Source: Lentimicrobium sp.
GTDB taxonomy: Bacteria; Bacteroidota; Bacteroidia; Bacteroidales; Lentimicrobiaceae
NCBI GenBank assembly: GCA_024709105.1
Contig: JANJXJ010000181.1
Location: 1-35,290, forward strand
DNA length: 35,290 bases
Reading direction: 5' to 3'
Below are positions 6,706 through 35,290 of the stretch, piece after piece; position 1 is the stretch's first letter; each line of letters opens with the position of its first letter. The position numbers were made by a program, and so were the translations under genes. The notes below the pieces were generated by a model. That model saw only the letters and a list, made by a program, of their open reading frames with translations, searched no databases and had not been told where the DNA came from.

Positions 6706-7655
6706 GTCTGCATTACAAATCATTAATTCCTACACGAACAGGTTTTGGGCTGGGAGTTTTGGAAGCGGGCAAAAAATCAGATAACCTGATAGCTCTTGGT
6801 TCAGATATTACCACTTCGGTGGGAATGAATTATTTTGCTGATGCTTTTCCTCAACGTTTTATCTCGTTGGGGATAGCAGAACAAAATGCTGCAGGAGTTG
6901 CTGCCGGCCTGGCCTTAATGAGAAAGATTCCTGTTTTTTCGACTTATGCAGTTTTTTCGGCTTTAAGAACTACTGACCAAATCAGAGTATCAATATGTTA
7001 TAATAACCTTCATGTTATTATAGGCGGAGCTCATGCTGGAATATCGGTTGGCCCCGATGGAGCAACACATCAGGCTTTGGAAGATATTGCCGTAATGCGG
7101 TGTCTGCCCAATATGATGGTACTATCACCCTGCGATGCTACACAAGCCAAAATTCTTACAGAAAAAGCTATTTCAGATTGTTTAGGGCCGGTGTATATAC
7201 GTTATGGACGTGAACCAGTCCCTGATTTTACTGATGAGGACCAATTATTAGAGATAGGTAAGGCTCAAACCATGAAAGAAGGTAAAGATGCTACTATTAT
7301 TGCTACCGGCCACATGGTTTTTCCTGCTTTAGAAGCTGCTTATGCACTGTCAGAGAAAGGAATGGATTTGAAAGTTGTCAACATTCATACCATAAAACCT
7401 ATTGATAAACAAGCAATTATAGATGCTGCTAAACAAACAGGTCTTATTGTAACCATTGAAGAACATCAGGTTACAGGGGGATTGGGAAGTGCCGTAGCTG
7501 AAACAGTGGTACAATCACATCCAGTTCCTGTTCATATAATTGGTATCCCCGACTGCTTCGGAGAATCAGGAAATCCTGAAGAATTGCTGGATAAATTCGG
7601 ACTAACCTCCGAAAAACTTGAATCCAGAATATTGCAAATACTTAATGACAGGTAA
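6702..7655 (+). CDS. Transketolase, C-terminal (pyrimidine/C-terminal domain) subunit
   Basis: The partner half of the split transketolase, 317 residues. It contains the pyrimidine-binding domain with GIAEQNAAGVAAGLALMRK, where the Glu activates thiamine diphosphate, then FSTYAVFSALRTTDQIR and GGAHAGISVGPDGATHQALED. The transketolase C domain follows (ATIIATGHMVFPALEAA, then TIEEHQVTGGLGSAVAE). I chose the ATG at 6702 because it overlaps the upstream stop codon. The frame is open 16 codons further upstream, but that would lie inside the N-subunit gene. Its TAA (7653-7655) directly abuts the truA stop codon on the other strand. Confidence 0.93.
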   Translation: MSLHYKSLIPTRTGFGLGVLEAGKKSDNLIALGSDITTSVGMNYFADAFPQRFISLGIAEQNAAGVAAGLALMRKIPVFSTYAVFSALRTTDQIRVSICYNNLHVIIGGAHAGISVGPDGATHQALEDIAVMRCLPNMMVLSPCDATQAKILTEKAISDCLGPVYIRYGREPVPDFTDEDQLLEIGKAQTMKEGKDATIIATGHMVFPALEAAYALSEKGMDLKVVNIHTIKPIDKQAIIDAAKQTGLIVTIEEHQVTGGLGSAVAETVVQSHPVPVHIIGIPDCFGESGNPEELLDKFGLTSEKLESRILQILNDR

Positions 7656-26321: not shown

Positions 26322-26630
26322 ACTTCTTTTAATAAAATTCGTTTTCCTGCGTTATTTTTGTTGTGCCTGAAAAGCATCATTTTCATTGATTTAATTTCGG
26401 TTTCTAAATTTCTTCACCTGACACCTTTGTTTAAATATAATCAGGTTTGAAAGAGAAGCAGATAAAAATCAGTGAAATGAACCTGATCAATTGCTAATTT
26501 ATTTTCATACACAAATTGTATGATAATAATAGTCAGAAAAATGGATTTCAGCACTCCTTTATTGCAGGGTAATTGTCGAACACAAGTAAAAAATCTGCAT
26601 AAAGCAGTCAGAACCACAAAATTGTTACCA

Positions 26631-29600
26631 ATGAAATTCTCCGGATTAAACTTTAAGTTTTGTTTCAGCATTATTCTTTCAATCTTTCTGTTAACGATTG
26701 CTACCTCTGCATATACTCAATCGCTTGATCCGGCGAGGCTTCAGCAATTTGAAGAAGCCATTTTAAAAGGTGAGGATTTTTTCAAGGCAGGAGAATATGC
26801 CAAAGCCAAGGCTGAATACCAGAAGGCTCTGGCAATAGATCCAGGTGCTAAATATCCCAAAGACAAACTAACCCAGATTCGTAAATTTTACATTGATCCT
26901 GAAGATGAAGCCAGGTTCAAATCAGCATTCGACAATGGCAATCGTTTGTTTCAGGCAGGAAAATATGACGAAGCACGCGATCAGTTTTCGATTGCAACCA
27001 ATATAAAACCTGAGGATAAACCAGCCAGAGATAAACTTATTGAAGCAGAACGGGCAGCTCAGGCATATAAAGAAGCATTTAAACAATATACACGACTTAT
27101 TGCCGATGCCGACAAGCTTTATAACGAAGGAAGGCTTAAAGATGCCAGGCCGGTTTATGTTTCAGCTTCCGAAGTTTTGCCTTCAGAAACATATCCGCAA
27201 GTAAGAATTCAGGAAATTGACAGAAAAGAAGCTGCGGCTGAAGCATTAAAACAATCATACGAAACTACTCTGGCTGAAGCAGATGAAGCTTACATGAACC
27301 GCGATTTTACTACTGCCAGGTTAAAATACGAACAGGCATTAAAAATTAAGCCGGCAGAGAACTATCCCAAAAGTATGCTTGAGAGGGTAGCCGAAGGAAT
27401 GGCACAACTTAAAGGGAATCAGGAAAAATACAATGCTGCAATAGCTGCAGCCGACAAACTTTTTGACTCCGGAGATTTTGAAACCGCCCGAAGTGGTTAT
27501 CAGAATGCTGCTTCATTAATGCCTGGCGAAAAACATCCTGCTGAAAGAATAAACAGAATTGATGAAATTCTTGCGCAAAGAAAACAATTGGATGAAAATT
27601 ACAATAAGGTACTTGCAGAAGCCGACAAACTTTTTGCAGAAAAAAAATATTCTGAAGCCAAAACTGAGTATCAGAAAGCCAATGATTTAAAACCCAGCGA
27701 ATCGTATCCCAAACAAAGGATCGAAGAAACGGCTCAGCAACTGCTGGCCATTAAAGAAGCTGAACGAAATAAAAATTATAACGATGCCATTGTTCTGGCT
27801 GATAAGCTCTTTGGGGAGAAGAACTATAAAGAAGCCCTGAGTGCCTACAACGAAGCCAGAAGTATAAAACCTGAAGAAAAATGGCCTGCAGAGCAGATTG
27901 CTCAGATAAATAAACTGTTTGAAGACCAGAAGACACTCGAAAATGCATATCAGCTTGCAATATCATCAGGAGATAATTTATTCTCGGCCAATAGTTTAGC
28001 AGAAGCTAAAGCTGAATATCAGAAAGCGTCGGGATTAAAGCCAAACGAAGATTACCCTAAGGGCCGCATTGCAGAAATAGATACGAAATTAGCTCAGGCC
28101 CAAAAAAATGAAGCCGACTTCAATGCAGCAGTTACAGAAGGCGACACCTATTTTTCGGAAAACAACTTAGTAAAATCTGAAGAAGCTTACCGCAGGGCAA
28201 TTTCTCTGAAACCAGGAAGCAAATACCCGGCAGATCAGATTGAAATAATACAAAGAAAGAAACTGGAATTGCAATCAAAAGAAGATCAGTATGTTTCGTT
28301 GGTTAAAGAAGGCGACGATAAGTTTTTGGCCAAGGAACTCAGTCTTGCAAAATCAAGTTATCAACAGGCTCTTGAACTGAAGCCCGGGGAAAAACATCCG
28401 GCAGACCGAATAGCCTTGATAGACAAAACGCTGGAAGAAGAGCAAAAACGTCGCAACGACTATACAATTAGTATTAAAGAAGCTGATCAACTTTTTGAAA
28501 AATCACAATTTGATGCTGCTTTAAGTTCTTACCAGAAAGCCGGACAGATTATCCCTGAAGAAAACTACCCGAATGAACAGATTGCCCGCATCAGGCAGAT
28601 TCAGGAGGAGCTGAAATCAGCTGAAGAAAACTATTTAAAATATCTGGGCAACGGCGACGAGGCTTTTAAGAACAAGAGCTATCAGCAAGCCATAACTGCC
28701 TATGAAAACGCGCTGAAGCTAAAACCTGCAGAAAAATATCCGGCAACTCAAATTGAACTGGCACGCAAAAATTTAGATGCACTTGCTGAACTTAGAAACA
28801 AGTATAATGCAACCATAGCTGCGGGTGATAAAAACTTTGAAGCCGGGCTGCTTGATGAAGCCTTAAAAAATTACAATGAAGCCATCAGTTTGATTGCCGG
28901 AGAGAATTATCCTTCGGAACAAATCGAAAAGATTAATGCCCTGAAAGCATCACAACTGCAAAGAGAAGAAGAATACAGACAGGCGATAGTTAAGGCAGAT
29001 GATTTTTTCGCAAAAACCAAATACAGCGAAGCACTTTCTAATTATGAAATCGCATTGACTGTAAATCCTTCATCGGAACATGCGCTTTCAAGAAAAGCTG
29101 AAATCGGAAGGATTCTTGGCGAAATTGAGCTTACATCGCAACAGTTTGAAACGGCTGTTAAACTGGGAGATGAAAAATTCAATATGCGTTTATGGGACGA
29201 ATCGGAAGCTGCATTTAAACAAGCGCTGAAGTTAAAACCCGCCGAAACCTATCCAGCCACGCAGATTGAACAAATTAACAAAGAAAGAGAAGCTGAACGC
29301 ACAGCCAGTGCCGGCTTTGCTGAATCTATTGCAGCAGCTGATGCAGCCTTTACATCCAAAGAATACGATAATGCTCTTGGCCATTATAAGCAAGCATTGA
29401 ATTTTAAGCCACAAGCAGAGCACCCAACACGCAGAATTGCTGAAATCAATTCAATACTTGAAGAACAAAAACGCCTGGCTGATAAAGATTATTACGAAGC
29501 CTTAGAAAAAGCAGATGCTCTTTTTCAGGAAAAAGACTACAATTCGGCTGTCAGGTTTTATGAAACCGCAACTGCCATAAAGCCACTGGAAAACCATCCC

Positions 29601-30164
29601 AAAGACAGGATTCTGGCTATCAGAAATATTCTGCAGGAAAGAGCCCGTAATCAAATGGAGGCCTACAACAAAATTATCCTGAATGCTGACCGCTTATACC
29701 AGGCCAAGGTTTTCGATCAGGCCATTGATGCCTACACCGAAGCATCACTTGCCAAACCCGATGAAAGTTATCCGGCCGACATGATCAGAAAAATCAGAAA
29801 ATACCTGGAAGACCATACCATGGTTGACCTGGTTGTATCCCCGACATCTGTTGAAACAGATACAGAGAAAAAATTCAATTTTACTCCCATTGAGTTCAGG
29901 TTGCGCAAAAACAATTATATCTCAATAAAAGCAAGAAAAACCAGCGAAACCGACCCCAAAGTCTATGTAAATTATGGCAAAGGATCGCAGAAAAACGGCG
30001 GGATCGTGCTAAGGAGCATCACAACCGATGAGCATGGCGACTTTTTGGTAAGAGTTAGTATTCAGGATCGCTGGTACCGCGAAGACAACAACTGGATTGG
30101 AATTTATGCCGAAGGAGGCAGCATAGAAATTGAAAAGATGCAGATCGCACAGGGTGGGGAATAG
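26631..30164 (+). CDS. Exported giant TPR-like repeat protein with 18 repeats of about 57 residues
   Basis: A 1177-residue protein. The signal peptide covers about residues 1-30 (LLTIATSAYTQS). From about residue 36 to 1062 it is a run of 18 homologous units of about 57 residues, each with the pattern AD-x-LF, Y-x-x-A, Y-x-x-A, LKP-x-E-x-YP and RI-x-x-I. Each unit is a TPR-like helix pair followed by a longer spacer helix. The last 110 residues form a beta-rich domain (FNFTPIEFRLRKNN onwards) found nowhere else here. I chose ATG 26631; the frame is open to 26520 but the upstream stretch lacks a signal peptide. It may be a periplasmic scaffold. Substrate and partners are unknown. Confidence 0.88.
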   Translation: MKFSGLNFKFCFSIILSIFLLTIATSAYTQSLDPARLQQFEEAILKGEDFFKAGEYAKAKAEYQKALAIDPGAKYPKDKLTQIRKFYIDPEDEARFKSAFDNGNRLFQAGKYDEARDQFSIATNIKPEDKPARDKLIEAERAAQAYKEAFKQYTRLIADADKLYNEGRLKDARPVYVSASEVLPSETYPQVRIQEIDRKEAAAEALKQSYETTLAEADEAYMNRDFTTARLKYEQALKIKPAENYPKSMLERVAEGMAQLKGNQEKYNAAIAAADKLFDSGDFETARSGYQNAASLMPGEKHPAERINRIDEILAQRKQLDENYNKVLAEADKLFAEKKYSEAKTEYQKANDLKPSESYPKQRIEETAQQLLAIKEAERNKNYNDAIVLADKLFGEKNYKEALSAYNEARSIKPEEKWPAEQIAQINKLFEDQKTLENAYQLAISSGDNLFSANSLAEAKAEYQKASGLKPNEDYPKGRIAEIDTKLAQAQKNEADFNAAVTEGDTYFSENNLVKSEEAYRRAISLKPGSKYPADQIEIIQRKKLELQSKEDQYVSLVKEGDDKFLAKELSLAKSSYQQALELKPGEKHPADRIALIDKTLEEEQKRRNDYTISIKEADQLFEKSQFDAALSSYQKAGQIIPEENYPNEQIARIRQIQEELKSAEENYLKYLGNGDEAFKNKSYQQAITAYENALKLKPAEKYPATQIELARKNLDALAELRNKYNATIAAGDKNFEAGLLDEALKNYNEAISLIAGENYPSEQIEKINALKASQLQREEEYRQAIVKADDFFAKTKYSEALSNYEIALTVNPSSEHALSRKAEIGRILGEIELTSQQFETAVKLGDEKFNMRLWDESEAAFKQALKLKPAETYPATQIEQINKEREAERTASAGFAESIAAADAAFTSKEYDNALGHYKQALNFKPQAEHPTRRIAEINSILEEQKRLADKDYYEALEKADALFQEKDYNSAVRFYETATAIKPLENHPKDRILAIRNILQERARNQMEAYNKIILNADRLYQAKVFDQAIDAYTEASLAKPDESYPADMIRKIRKYLEDHTMVDLVVSPTSVETDTEKKFNFTPIEFRLRKNNYISIKARKTSETDPKVYVNYGKGSQKNGGIVLRSITTDEHGDFLVRVSIQDRWYREDNNWIGIYAEGGSIEIEKMQIAQGGE

Positions 30165-34539: not shown

Positions 34540-34626
34540 GGTGAGGTGGGTGAGTGGCTTAAACCAACAGTTTGCTAAACTGTCGTACTGGAAACGGTAC
34601 CGGGGGTTCGAATCCCCCCTTCACCG
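34540..34626 (+). tRNA. tRNA-Ser (anticodon GCU)
   Basis: Acceptor stem GGTGAGG with CTTCACC (one G-U pair), a long variable arm (TACTGGAAACGGTA), and T arm GGGGGTTCGAATCCCCC. The anticodon loop is TTGCTAA in the stem CAGT/ACTG, giving anticodon GCT. The discriminator is G. CCA is not encoded. Read by eye; ends should be exact within 1-2 nt. Confidence 0.93.
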
Positions 34627-34627
34627 C

Positions 34628-34664: not shown

Positions 34665-34737
34665 CGGGGTGTAGTACAGTTGGTAGTATGCTTGGTTTGG
34701 GACCAAGAGGTCGTCGGTTCGAGTCCGGCCACCCCGA
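34665..34737 (+). tRNA. tRNA-Pro (anticodon UGG)
   Basis: Acceptor stem CGGGGTG with CACCCCG, discriminator A. D arm contains AGTTGGTAGTATG. The anticodon stem-loop is CTTGG-TTTGGGA-CCAAG, so the anticodon is TGG. T arm GTCGGTTCGAGTCCGGC is canonical. CCA is not encoded. It is the parent of the fragments at 34800-34820, 35121-35179 and 35241-35261. Confidence 0.93.
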
Positions 34738-34751
34738 CTACAATAAATCAG

Positions 34752-34788
34752 AAGCCTTGTAAGACAATAACTTACAAGGCTTTTTTTT
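34752..34788 (+). terminator. Terminator of the tRNA operon
   Basis: Stem GCCTTGTAAG/CTTACAAGGC (extended by A-T pairs) around ACAATAA, followed by eight T. It closes the tRNA-Pro transcript 14 nt after the tRNA. The same structure recurs at 35193-35229. Confidence 0.93.
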
Positions 34789-34799
34789 CTGAATCAACT

Positions 34800-34820
34800 T
34801 TCGAGTCCGGCCACCCTGAC
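34800..34820 (+). repeat. Detached tRNA-Pro 3' fragment, 21 nt
   Basis: Matches the T-loop to 3' end of tRNA-Pro (34718-34738) at 20 of 21 positions, with one C to T change near the end. It starts TTCGAGTCCGGCCACCC. No acceptor 5' strand is near, so it cannot fold as a tRNA. Found again at 35241-35261. Confidence 0.85.
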
Positions 34821-34825
34821 AGATA

Positions 34826-34857
34826 AGCATTCCGCGAAAACGGGAGGCTCTTTTTTT
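34826..34857 (+). terminator. Second hairpin with T-run ahead of the GIY-YIG gene
   Basis: AGCATTCCG and CGGGAGGCT pair with one mismatch and one G-U around CGAAAA, then CTTTTTTT. It ends 12 nt before the GIY-YIG start codon. The repeat copy at 35267-35290 is cut by the window end. Confidence 0.75.
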
Positions 34858-34868
34858 AAGTTTATTTT

Positions 34869-35123
34869 ATGGCTCACTTTGTTTACATTCTTAAAAGTCT
34901 GAAAGATAACAGGTTCTATATTGGCGAAACTGCTGATTTAGAAAGAAGAATTTTTGAGCATAATGAGGGATGGGTAAAATCTACCAGGGACAGAAGGCCT
35001 CTTGTTATTGTGTATACGGAAACCCTTGAATCCAAGTCTGAAGGAAAGAAAAGGGAAAAACAAATCAAAGCTTACAAAGGTGGTGAAGCTTTTAAAAAAC
35101 TAATCTCTTCTGATTCAAATTAG
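34869..35123 (+). CDS. Small GIY-YIG nuclease-domain protein
   Basis: An 84-residue single-domain protein of the GIY-YIG endonuclease superfamily (UPF0213/YhbQ-like). The domain opens with FVYILKS (GIY position) and RFYIGETADLERRIFEHNEG (YIG, then the conserved Arg and a His), and has the KKREKQIKAYK segment with the catalytic-type Glu near the C-terminus. It is short but complete for this class. It lies between a tRNA-Pro gene and a broken copy of it, inside a direct repeat. Its stop codon TAG (35121-35123) is the first three bases of the tRNA-derived remnant. Whether it cuts DNA or tRNA-like structures is unknown. Confidence 0.85.
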   Translation: MAHFVYILKSLKDNRFYIGETADLERRIFEHNEGWVKSTRDRRPLVIVYTETLESKSEGKKREKQIKAYKGGEAFKKLISSDSN

Positions 35124-35179
35124 TATGCTTGGTTTGGCCCCGCCATCGGCGGGGGTCGGTTCAAACCGGCCACCCCGAC
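35121..35179 (+). pseudogene. Degenerate tRNA-Pro copy lacking its 5' part
   Basis: The segment TAGTATGCTTGGTTTGG is identical to tRNA-Pro 34684-34700. Next, where tRNA-Pro has its anticodon 3' strand, the copy holds the palindrome CCCCGCCATCGGCGGGG (35138-35154). The T arm then resumes as TCGGTTCAAACCGGCC, changed and one base shorter in the loop, and the 3' end CCACCCCGAC is intact. The acceptor 5' strand and D-arm start are missing. It cannot be a functional tRNA. Confidence 0.8.
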
Positions 35180-35290
35180 CACAATGAATCAGAAGCCTTG
35201 TAAGACAATAACTTACAAGGCTTTTTTTTCTGAATCAACTTTCGAGTCCGGCCACCCTGACAGATAAGCATTCCGCGAAAACGGGAGGCT
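35172..35290 (+). repeat. Direct repeat copy 2 (about 119 bp, continues past the window end)
   Basis: Copy of 34731-34849, offset by 441 bp, with two substitutions. It carries the same terminator (35193-35229), the 21-nt tRNA-Pro 3' fragment (35241-35261) and the start of the second hairpin. Because the repeat is still matching at the last base of the window, the repeating unit probably continues. Confidence 0.93.
35193..35229 (+). terminator. Terminator hairpin, repeat copy
   Basis: Same stem as 34752-34788 (GCCTTGTAAG/CTTACAAGGC plus T-run), 441 bp further on. It would terminate transcription of the GIY-YIG gene. Confidence 0.88.

Follow-up and report, generated by a model that had tools for sequence, protein, structure and literature searches.

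A tRNA-Pro(TGG) gene of Lentimicrobium sp. is followed by a small GIY-YIG nuclease gene and then by a broken copy of the same tRNA gene. We consider it moderately probable that this unit is a homing-type selfish element of the chromosome that resides in a tRNA gene, and that it enters at the anticodon arm and restores the tRNA. The evidence read from the DNA consists of an architecture repeated at many loci, a tie between nuclease lineage and tRNA species, a hairpin in the tRNA copy, the presence of occupied and unoccupied sites, displacement of the terminator of tRNA-Pro in two genomes, and purifying selection on the nuclease. The recurrence of the arrangement beside many kinds of tRNA in related bacteria points to a family of selfish elements, not yet described, that live in tRNA genes.

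Results

Organization of the tRNA-Pro locus

The window, by which we mean the whole stretch of DNA that was analysed, is the entire contig C187 (35290 bp) and ends within a repeat. Its relevant features are as follows.

34540..34627, + strand: tRNA-Ser(GCT), the upstream neighbour, common to occupied and empty loci
34665..34738, + strand: intact tRNA-Pro(TGG), host of the element
34739..34798, + strand: terminator-like hairpin AAGCCTTGTAAG..CTTACAAGGCTT (hairpin at 34752-34782) with a T run
34800..34820, + strand: tRNA-Pro 3' piece (tRNA positions 54-74), 95% identity, probably an older remnant
34821..34858, + strand: second hairpin with a T run
34869..35123, + strand: gene for a small GIY-YIG nuclease of 84 aa that has the family's conserved residues
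35121..35179, + strand: broken tRNA-Pro copy, starting at tRNA position 20 and supplying the stop codon of the ORF
35138..35154, + strand: perfect palindrome CCCCGCC-atc-GGCGGGG, replacing the 3' strand of the anticodon stem and the variable loop
35180..35290, + strand: start of a second tandem unit (terminator, tRNA 3' piece at 35241-35261, second hairpin), truncated by the contig end

The first-pass annotation had described a complete tRNA-Pro followed by a GIY-YIG unit that contains a terminator, a tRNA-Pro 3' fragment and a second hairpin, with a broken tRNA-Pro copy behind the nuclease gene, and each of these parts was recovered. The ORF matched Pfam PF01541 (E=2e-14), and its stop codon, which had been said to derive from tRNA bases, is a TAG formed by the first three bases of the tRNA-Pro copy. 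The 441-bp unit, with a second one begun before the window ends, was likewise borne out by a direct repeat (34725-34849 and 35166-35290) of 125 nt, 98% identical, with a period of 441; because the window ends within this repeat at the contig end, the second unit was broken off by assembly. The palindromic hairpin inside the copy is a new addition to that description. The copy of the window retains tRNA positions 20-36, including the anticodon TGG, and has lost the 3' strand of the anticodon stem. The proposal that had to be given up is that the unit inserts at, or duplicates, the 3' end of the tRNA: the break was found at or in the anticodon arm and carries a palindrome, or it lies in the D-loop in several units with a downstream tRNA. 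By eye, the second hairpin is similar to the terminator behind the intact tRNA in the relatives G009 and G011.

A search of the whole genome with the unit of the window identified one further place, on contig C63, where a solo tRNA-Pro 3' piece with its terminator (6768-6859) lies near the end of an unrelated gene. Elsewhere in the window, positions 26520-30164 encode a protein of 1214 residues in which diverged repeats, each about 70 residues long and TPR-like by eye, occur many times.

The arrangement recurs beside many tRNA genes

The window's genome contains three small genes that match the window nuclease. An intact tRNA gene on the same strand (Pro, Asn and Asp) closely precedes each of them, and all three loci then show a damaged copy of their own tRNA that holds a hairpin or a hairpin-like insert. 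The Pfam model gave three more hits in this genome; their frames are 620, 459 and 52 residues long, and none has a tRNA within about 1.5 kb. When 60 genomes, the window's own included, were searched with the window protein, 28 contained matches, comprising 74 domain matches in 62 loci; an intact tRNA on the same strand lay within 700 bp in 42 of them, and some tRNA piece was present in 47. Rfam found no rRNA in 20 loci of the tRNA-less members, which rules out rRNA as their anchor, and the six tRNA-less loci that we inspected sit among repeated palindromic or otherwise repeated sequence.

At 1e-10, a profile built from 26 tRNA-adjacent domains matched 245 genomes out of the 395 sampled from the window's phylum. 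The tRNA context was checked in 29 new loci alone among these matches, chosen as the top-scoring ones, one per genome, and hence not a random sample; in 28 of them an intact same-strand tRNA was present within 215 bp of a nuclease, and the remaining locus ends at a contig end. For four of the 28 (L173, L176, L178 and L187) the tRNA is near a tandem neighbour nuclease rather than the locus's own. A profile of the Asp-type nucleases detected 65 loci in named genomes, with hosts that include a Lentimicrobium MAG, Perlabentimonas, several Flavobacterium isolates, Maribacter, Pedobacter, Pontibacter and Aequorivita, as well as MAGs labelled Neomarinimicrobiota, Cloacimonadota, Ignavibacteria and a few farther groups. 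The nearest tRNA within 300 bp was on the same strand in 40/65 of these loci and on the opposite strand in 0/65; 12/65 had no tRNA within 300 bp despite readable flanks on both sides (four of the 12 have one at 380-1166 bp), and a further 13/65 had no such tRNA in flanks that are cut short. The arrangement is real and is not confined to the window.

Some individual loci deserve mention in their own right. At L049 (G020:C3:5600-12600) an array of tRNA-Val- and tRNA-Phe-like copies with odd anticodons (aaa, or of two bases) surrounds two nuclease genes. At L081 (G009:C62:80594) an Asp-type nuclease lies amid tRNA-Asp pieces only, with the intact tRNA-Asp about 8.5 kb away on the same contig. In a Fluviicola sp. 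MAG (L244), a tRNA-like gene with the suppressor-like anticodon TTA adjoins the nuclease and may be an altered copy.

The tRNA copy is broken at the anticodon arm

Of 94 loci (93 distinct) with an intact tRNA near the nuclease, 88 could be read on the far side of the gene. There, 82/88 contain a piece of the same tRNA and 6/88 do not, whereas a control with five other tRNAs per locus gave a mean of 7.5%. Among loci with an upstream tRNA, coverage of the copy by tRNA position reached 25/60 in the D-arm and was 10-15 at positions 29-43 (18 at position 36) and 40-58 at positions 49-74; the 5' acceptor strand (positions 1-8) was present in only 2/60 copies. Where the tRNA lies downstream (mainly Arg and Ser, some Leu), the copy is mostly a 5' half, and several have a palindrome in the D-loop. 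At 34/90 loci the nuclease gene ends in a stop codon inside an exact 9-mer of the neighbouring tRNA; with another, randomly chosen tRNA as control the count was 0/90.

In 38 loci both anchors of the copy could be fixed, and the replaced part spans, by median, positions 27 to 46. The insert holds a stem of at least 5 bp in 36/38, with a mean stem of 7.1 bp versus 3.4 bp in shuffled sequence. The anticodon loop is gone in 24/38 under the stricter rule (a looser rule counted the whole arm as replaced in 34/38), and in three of the 24 (L073, L102 and L181) the right boundary falls in the loop. The other 14/38 keep the anticodon or most of the loop, or have a boundary inside it. The window's copy is among these 14, which include four Pro(tgg) and four Asp loci from the window's genus and two loci (L197 and L198) that seem to have been placed there by a chance five-base match. 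Several Ala and Val copies show the exchange in its simplest form, a 17-base anticodon stem-loop swapped for a 17-base TCCCG..CGGGA stem-loop.

The hairpins of the copies are often dispersed palindromes

The motif TCCCG..CGGGA was found in or near 38/82 copies versus 1/77 control windows. The longer TCCCGA..TCGGGA had 172 occurrences in eight chosen whole genomes versus 14 for the reversed pattern, an excess that is uneven, from 44 to 1 in G001 to 9 to 5 in G330. The Asp palindrome TCTCGTCA..TGACGAGA occurred at 15 places in five genomes, 13 of them within fragments of tRNA-Asp, -Gly or -Arg; the remaining two are an ordinary 23S helix and one other site. Insertion of the palindrome into the 23S rRNA of the window's genome was rejected, as two relatives keep the same helix with other paired sequence. 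By such counts, the hairpin of the copy is often a palindrome that is also dispersed in the genomes. The copy palindrome remains recognisable across the Pro and Asp genomes despite synonymous sites near or at saturation, and gene conversion from the intact tRNA cannot supply it, because the intact tRNA does not contain it.

Two arrays, L166 (G001:C2) and L168 (G012:C58), are built of tandemly repeated 5' pieces of tRNA-Gly and tRNA-Arg and contain the Asp-type palindrome; the 3.4-4.5 kb read around them showed no nuclease of the family. A different palindrome, which flanks the sister-branch nucleases L059, L062 and L064, was present in 123 copies in 12/18 genomes of the genus, and the reversed pattern in 0. 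A strict bond between this REP palindrome and the sister-branch nuclease was rejected, since G013 (19 copies) and G018 (27 copies) carry the palindrome and no such nuclease was found in them. On contig C101 of G018 (90412-90806), REP-type palindromes form a tandem array with 75-bp spacing.

Occupied and empty sites

The first-pass annotation had named a fixed ancestral arrangement with no empty sites, together with GIY-YIG genes elsewhere that lack tRNA fragments, as what would speak against it. In related genomes both empty sites and GIY-YIG genes that adjoin tRNA genes with duplicated fragments were found. The tRNA-Ser/tRNA-Pro locus matched in 17/19 genomes of the genus; 16 were readable past the tRNA, and 4/16 carry the nuclease. 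Of the Asp loci, six are occupied, six unoccupied and three unreadable. Occupied and unoccupied alleles at one site are thus present at both Pro and Asp, as expected of a homing endonuclease element. In G005 and G013 the flank, tRNA and terminator of the Asp locus are shared, and the sequences diverge, by eye, at the start of the nuclease gene. Two genomes at the Pro locus (G001 and G005) have no nuclease but do have a copy with a similar hairpin, again by eye.

The terminators at the Pro locus bear on the direction of entry. That of the empty G012 resembles the terminators that follow the displaced copies of G009 (z 4.6) and G011 (z 6.9). It shows no such similarity to the terminators directly behind the intact tRNA of G009 (z 1.8) and G011 (z 0.9), and these two are alike (z 11.0). 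The unit therefore seems to have entered the tRNA-Pro gene in G009 and G011, displacing its 3' end and native terminator downstream. Such displacement of the native terminator was looked for at the Pro locus, where it was seen in these two genomes and not in the window's genome (G000) or G018. The latter has a native-like terminator after the intact tRNA-Pro (z 8.2), which might follow from duplicated units, and the window's terminator after the intact tRNA-Pro fits neither class. The host tree at the Pro locus gave no settled branching order.

Two further sites near tRNA-Pro were recorded. In G017 (C65:62350-62375, the L113 region) a solo tRNA-Pro 3' piece lies about 2 kb from the tRNA-Pro gene, and no nuclease was found in the stretch read; in G006 (L115, C33) the unoccupied tRNA-Pro gene has a CRISPR-like repeat array downstream, beginning within about 100 bp.

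The nuclease lineage follows the tRNA species

By sequence, the window protein belongs to the GIY-YIG nuclease superfamily; PF01541 was the sole Pfam family that matched it. This superfamily is characterised by a conserved Tyr, a Tyr-x-Gly, an Arg, a His and a Glu, and Y6, Y17, G19, R27, H31 and E63 were invariant in 26/26 aligned rows (26 of the 36 tRNA rows). The nearest solved structures by profile were UPF0213 (8.6e-17) and SLX1 (5e-8), a structure-specific enzyme, with I-TevI behind (0.003). A bare GIY-YIG core close to UPF0213 and SLX1 suggests recognition of structure without a separate DNA-binding domain. Against the PADLOC and PHROGs libraries of phage-defence and phage families, 0/3 nuclease proteins had a match.

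The two trees that we constructed rest on about 70 columns, and many of their forks are unresolved. In the 60-row tree the tRNA-associated rows form one branch (support 96/89), which includes four tRNA-less rows; the other 20 tRNA-less rows fall outside. All labels together required 13 changes on this tree versus 34.2 when shuffled (0/200 shuffles as low), and within the tRNA rows 11 changes suffice for the tRNA type, compared with 26 for the host genome; all seven Asp rows fall in a single clade (100/99). On the 87-row tree of tRNA-adjacent nucleases the tRNA labels required 32 changes versus 61.9 shuffled, and the side of the tRNA (upstream or downstream) was weakly clustered, with 12 changes versus a shuffled mean of 14.9 and minimum of 13. 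As judged from the 60-row tree, the nuclease lineage tracks the tRNA species more than the host genome.

We tried 27 Pro/Asp pairs for estimates of selection, and seven had a finite dS. In the six of these that are between genomes, dN/dS was 0.07-0.12, with a dS of 0.66 in one and of 1.8-2.6, near saturation, in five; the near-identical tandem pair in G018 gave 0.46. By these ratios the nuclease genes are under purifying selection.

Discussion

The mechanism that we propose starts from a unit made of the 3' part of a tRNA (anticodon arm onward), a terminator, the GIY-YIG gene, the 5' part of the tRNA from the D-arm, and a terminal palindrome. The nuclease would cleave the DNA of the tRNA gene at the anticodon-arm hairpin of its own tRNA species, and repair of the break would copy the unit in and restore the tRNA. 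Entry at the anticodon arm would leave an intact hybrid tRNA followed by the element's own terminator and nuclease gene, and would push the old 3' half of the tRNA with its native terminator downstream, the palindrome taking the place of the anticodon arm or of one of its strands. The tandem arrays could arise if cutting went on and repair was unequal, and the palindrome may mark or protect the end of the element. Cutting of the tRNA gene or the tRNA by the nuclease, like mobility of the unit, is what we infer from the layout.

The weak point of this mechanism is that the restored tRNA should become a target again. Homing insertion usually, if not universally, removes the target from the genome that carries it. 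Here the anticodon loop is lost from the copy in 24/38, yet the intact tRNA stays beside it. Moreover, the intact tRNA-Asp reads identically in many occupied and unoccupied genomes, and the site left behind is therefore not visibly protected. Other observations also count against the homing-type explanation, namely the 14/38 copies that keep the anticodon or loop, the 6/88 loci without a piece of the same tRNA, the 12/65 without a near tRNA, the four tRNA-less rows within the tRNA branch, the terminators behind the intact tRNA-Pro in the window and G018, and the near-saturated dS of five of the six pairs. In addition, the different tRNA-Pro body of the occupied genomes is also present in the empty G012 and is therefore not bound to the element, so that the idea of an element carrying its own tRNA-Pro allele was rejected. 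Transfer itself left no direct trace, and little was found in favour of a phage or plasmid vehicle: 15 phage and two plasmid records matched, none named as Bacteroidota, and no relatives of the Asp profile were found in viral contigs. One phage and one plasmid hit were inspected, with no tRNA annotated beside the gene (the plasmid tables list no RNA genes).

One could envision a more far-reaching version, which we put forward tentatively, in which these units represent a new class of mobile DNA that exchanges hairpins. A minimal GIY-YIG enzyme would recognise hairpin structures, dispersed palindromes in one branch and the anticodon arm of one tRNA species in the other. It would spread by swapping the anticodon arm, or one strand of it, for its terminal palindrome, and would carry enough of the tRNA to rebuild an essential gene. 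The nuclease-free palindrome/tRNA arrays of Gly and Arg would then be non-autonomous forms.

An alternative at the RNA level, which we regard as unlikely, is that the GIY-YIG protein is an anticodon nuclease or a processing enzyme for the neighbouring tRNA, with the altered copy acting as a decoy, antidote or processing signal on the same transcript. The tracking of tRNA species by nuclease lineage would fit this, as would the fact that the anticodon arm is the altered part and retains a hairpin, and that the nearest tRNA, when near, is on the same strand. The existence of sister branches with no near tRNA, among repeated palindromes in the six loci inspected, argues against it, and so do the nearest solved relatives, UPF0213 and the DNA enzyme SLX1, and the 5' acceptor strand, missing from all but 2/60 copies. 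A tRNA-like RNA fold was rejected for the copy of the window (z -1.22) and for an Asp copy (z -0.67), which fold no better than shuffles, though one Val copy (z -3.90) and one Gly copy (z -2.73) do fold better.

Slightly less probable still is a repair or copy-number function adopted by the host, in which a vertically inherited gene helps to keep or amplify tRNA genes, as SegB does in phage T6. Purifying selection, the wide spread and the tandem arrays are compatible with such a function, and SegB, which amplifies tRNA in phage T6 (PMC13096335), is a precedent; the patchy distribution within one genus is not what it predicts, and broken extra copies should add nothing to tRNA dosage.

It is quite improbable that the loci are passive hot spots at which small genes and hairpin terminators gather behind tRNA genes by illegitimate recombination, with the pieces as decay products. 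tRNA genes are common integration sites, and further decayed pieces were seen; however, a piece of the same tRNA lies on the far side in 82/88, the hairpins of the copies are well above shuffles, and the palindrome can still be recognised among Pro and Asp genomes that have their synonymous sites near or at saturation. Finally, an assembly artefact at the contig end, to which the ending of the window inside a repeat might point, has practically no probability left, given that the same layout lies deep inside contigs and in named isolate records.

The homing-type element has partial parallels among known systems. Behind E. coli tyrT there are tandem 178-bp repeats, each starting with a tRNA 3' piece, and in this the units described here are similar; to our knowledge, the tyrT repeats have no nuclease gene and no altered anticodon arm. 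An integrase-type tRNA island was rejected, as the window's unit has one small nuclease gene and the break in the anchored loci is at or in the anticodon arm, not the 3' end. A group I intron with a GIY-YIG gene was rejected as well, since Rfam gave no intron for the window at the gathering score and the tRNA is uninterrupted.

SegB, for which Brok-Volchanskaya 2008 is cited, is a free-standing GIY-YIG homing endonuclease. It lies beside tRNA genes of phages T4 and T6 (PMC13096335), and both systems share a GIY-YIG gene that adjoins tRNA genes, tandem tRNA and nuclease units, and a microhomology common to the tRNA 5' end and the nuclease 3' end (PMC13096335). An origin of arrays by unequal repair has been proposed for SegB and its tRNA in phage T6 (PMC13096335). 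Unlike SegB, which resides in phage, the present element is chromosomal, and the available part of the SegB account mentions no altered tRNA copies with palindromes (PMC13096335). Here, moreover, the nuclease lineages are matched to many tRNA species, and the three proteins tried hit no PHROG family.

Fungal mitochondrial mORFs, such as those of Allomyces atp6 and Glomus atp6, atp9, cox2 and nad3 (PMC3630166), are similar in that an endonuclease gene has on one side an inserted gene end, which completes the host gene, and on the other the native end that was displaced (PMC3630166); one reported case (atp9) is GIY-YIG (PMC3630166). A duplicated or restored gene end is found here as the same-tRNA piece in 82/88 loci, and displacement of the native terminator, looked for at the Pro locus, was seen there in G009 and G011. 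Unlike the elements in bacterial tRNA genes, mORFs occur in protein genes of mtDNA, with no palindrome in the displaced part as far as the available portion of that account goes (PMC3630166).

Like REP/RAYT (REPIN) systems, the sister-branch nuclease genes lie among palindromes that are also dispersed, whereas the enzyme here is a GIY-YIG nuclease and not a tyrosine (HUH) transposase. CGTC REPs, which occur in Bacteroidetes among others, are described in the available part of one account as not associated with transposase genes (PMC3733652). In the open full-text literature, no such arrangement as ours was found among the matches listed, as judged by title and abstract start; subscription papers and preprints were mostly outside this search.

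If the homing-type explanation is right, most sampled genomes of the phylum (245/395 match the profile) carry small selfish nucleases, each living in one tRNA species and rebuilding an essential tRNA gene on entry. This would account for broken tRNA copies and some of the dispersed palindromes in genomes of the phylum, would give an enzyme candidate for the REP-like palindromes found there, and would offer a compact set of natural nucleases with targets apparently set by tRNA identity.
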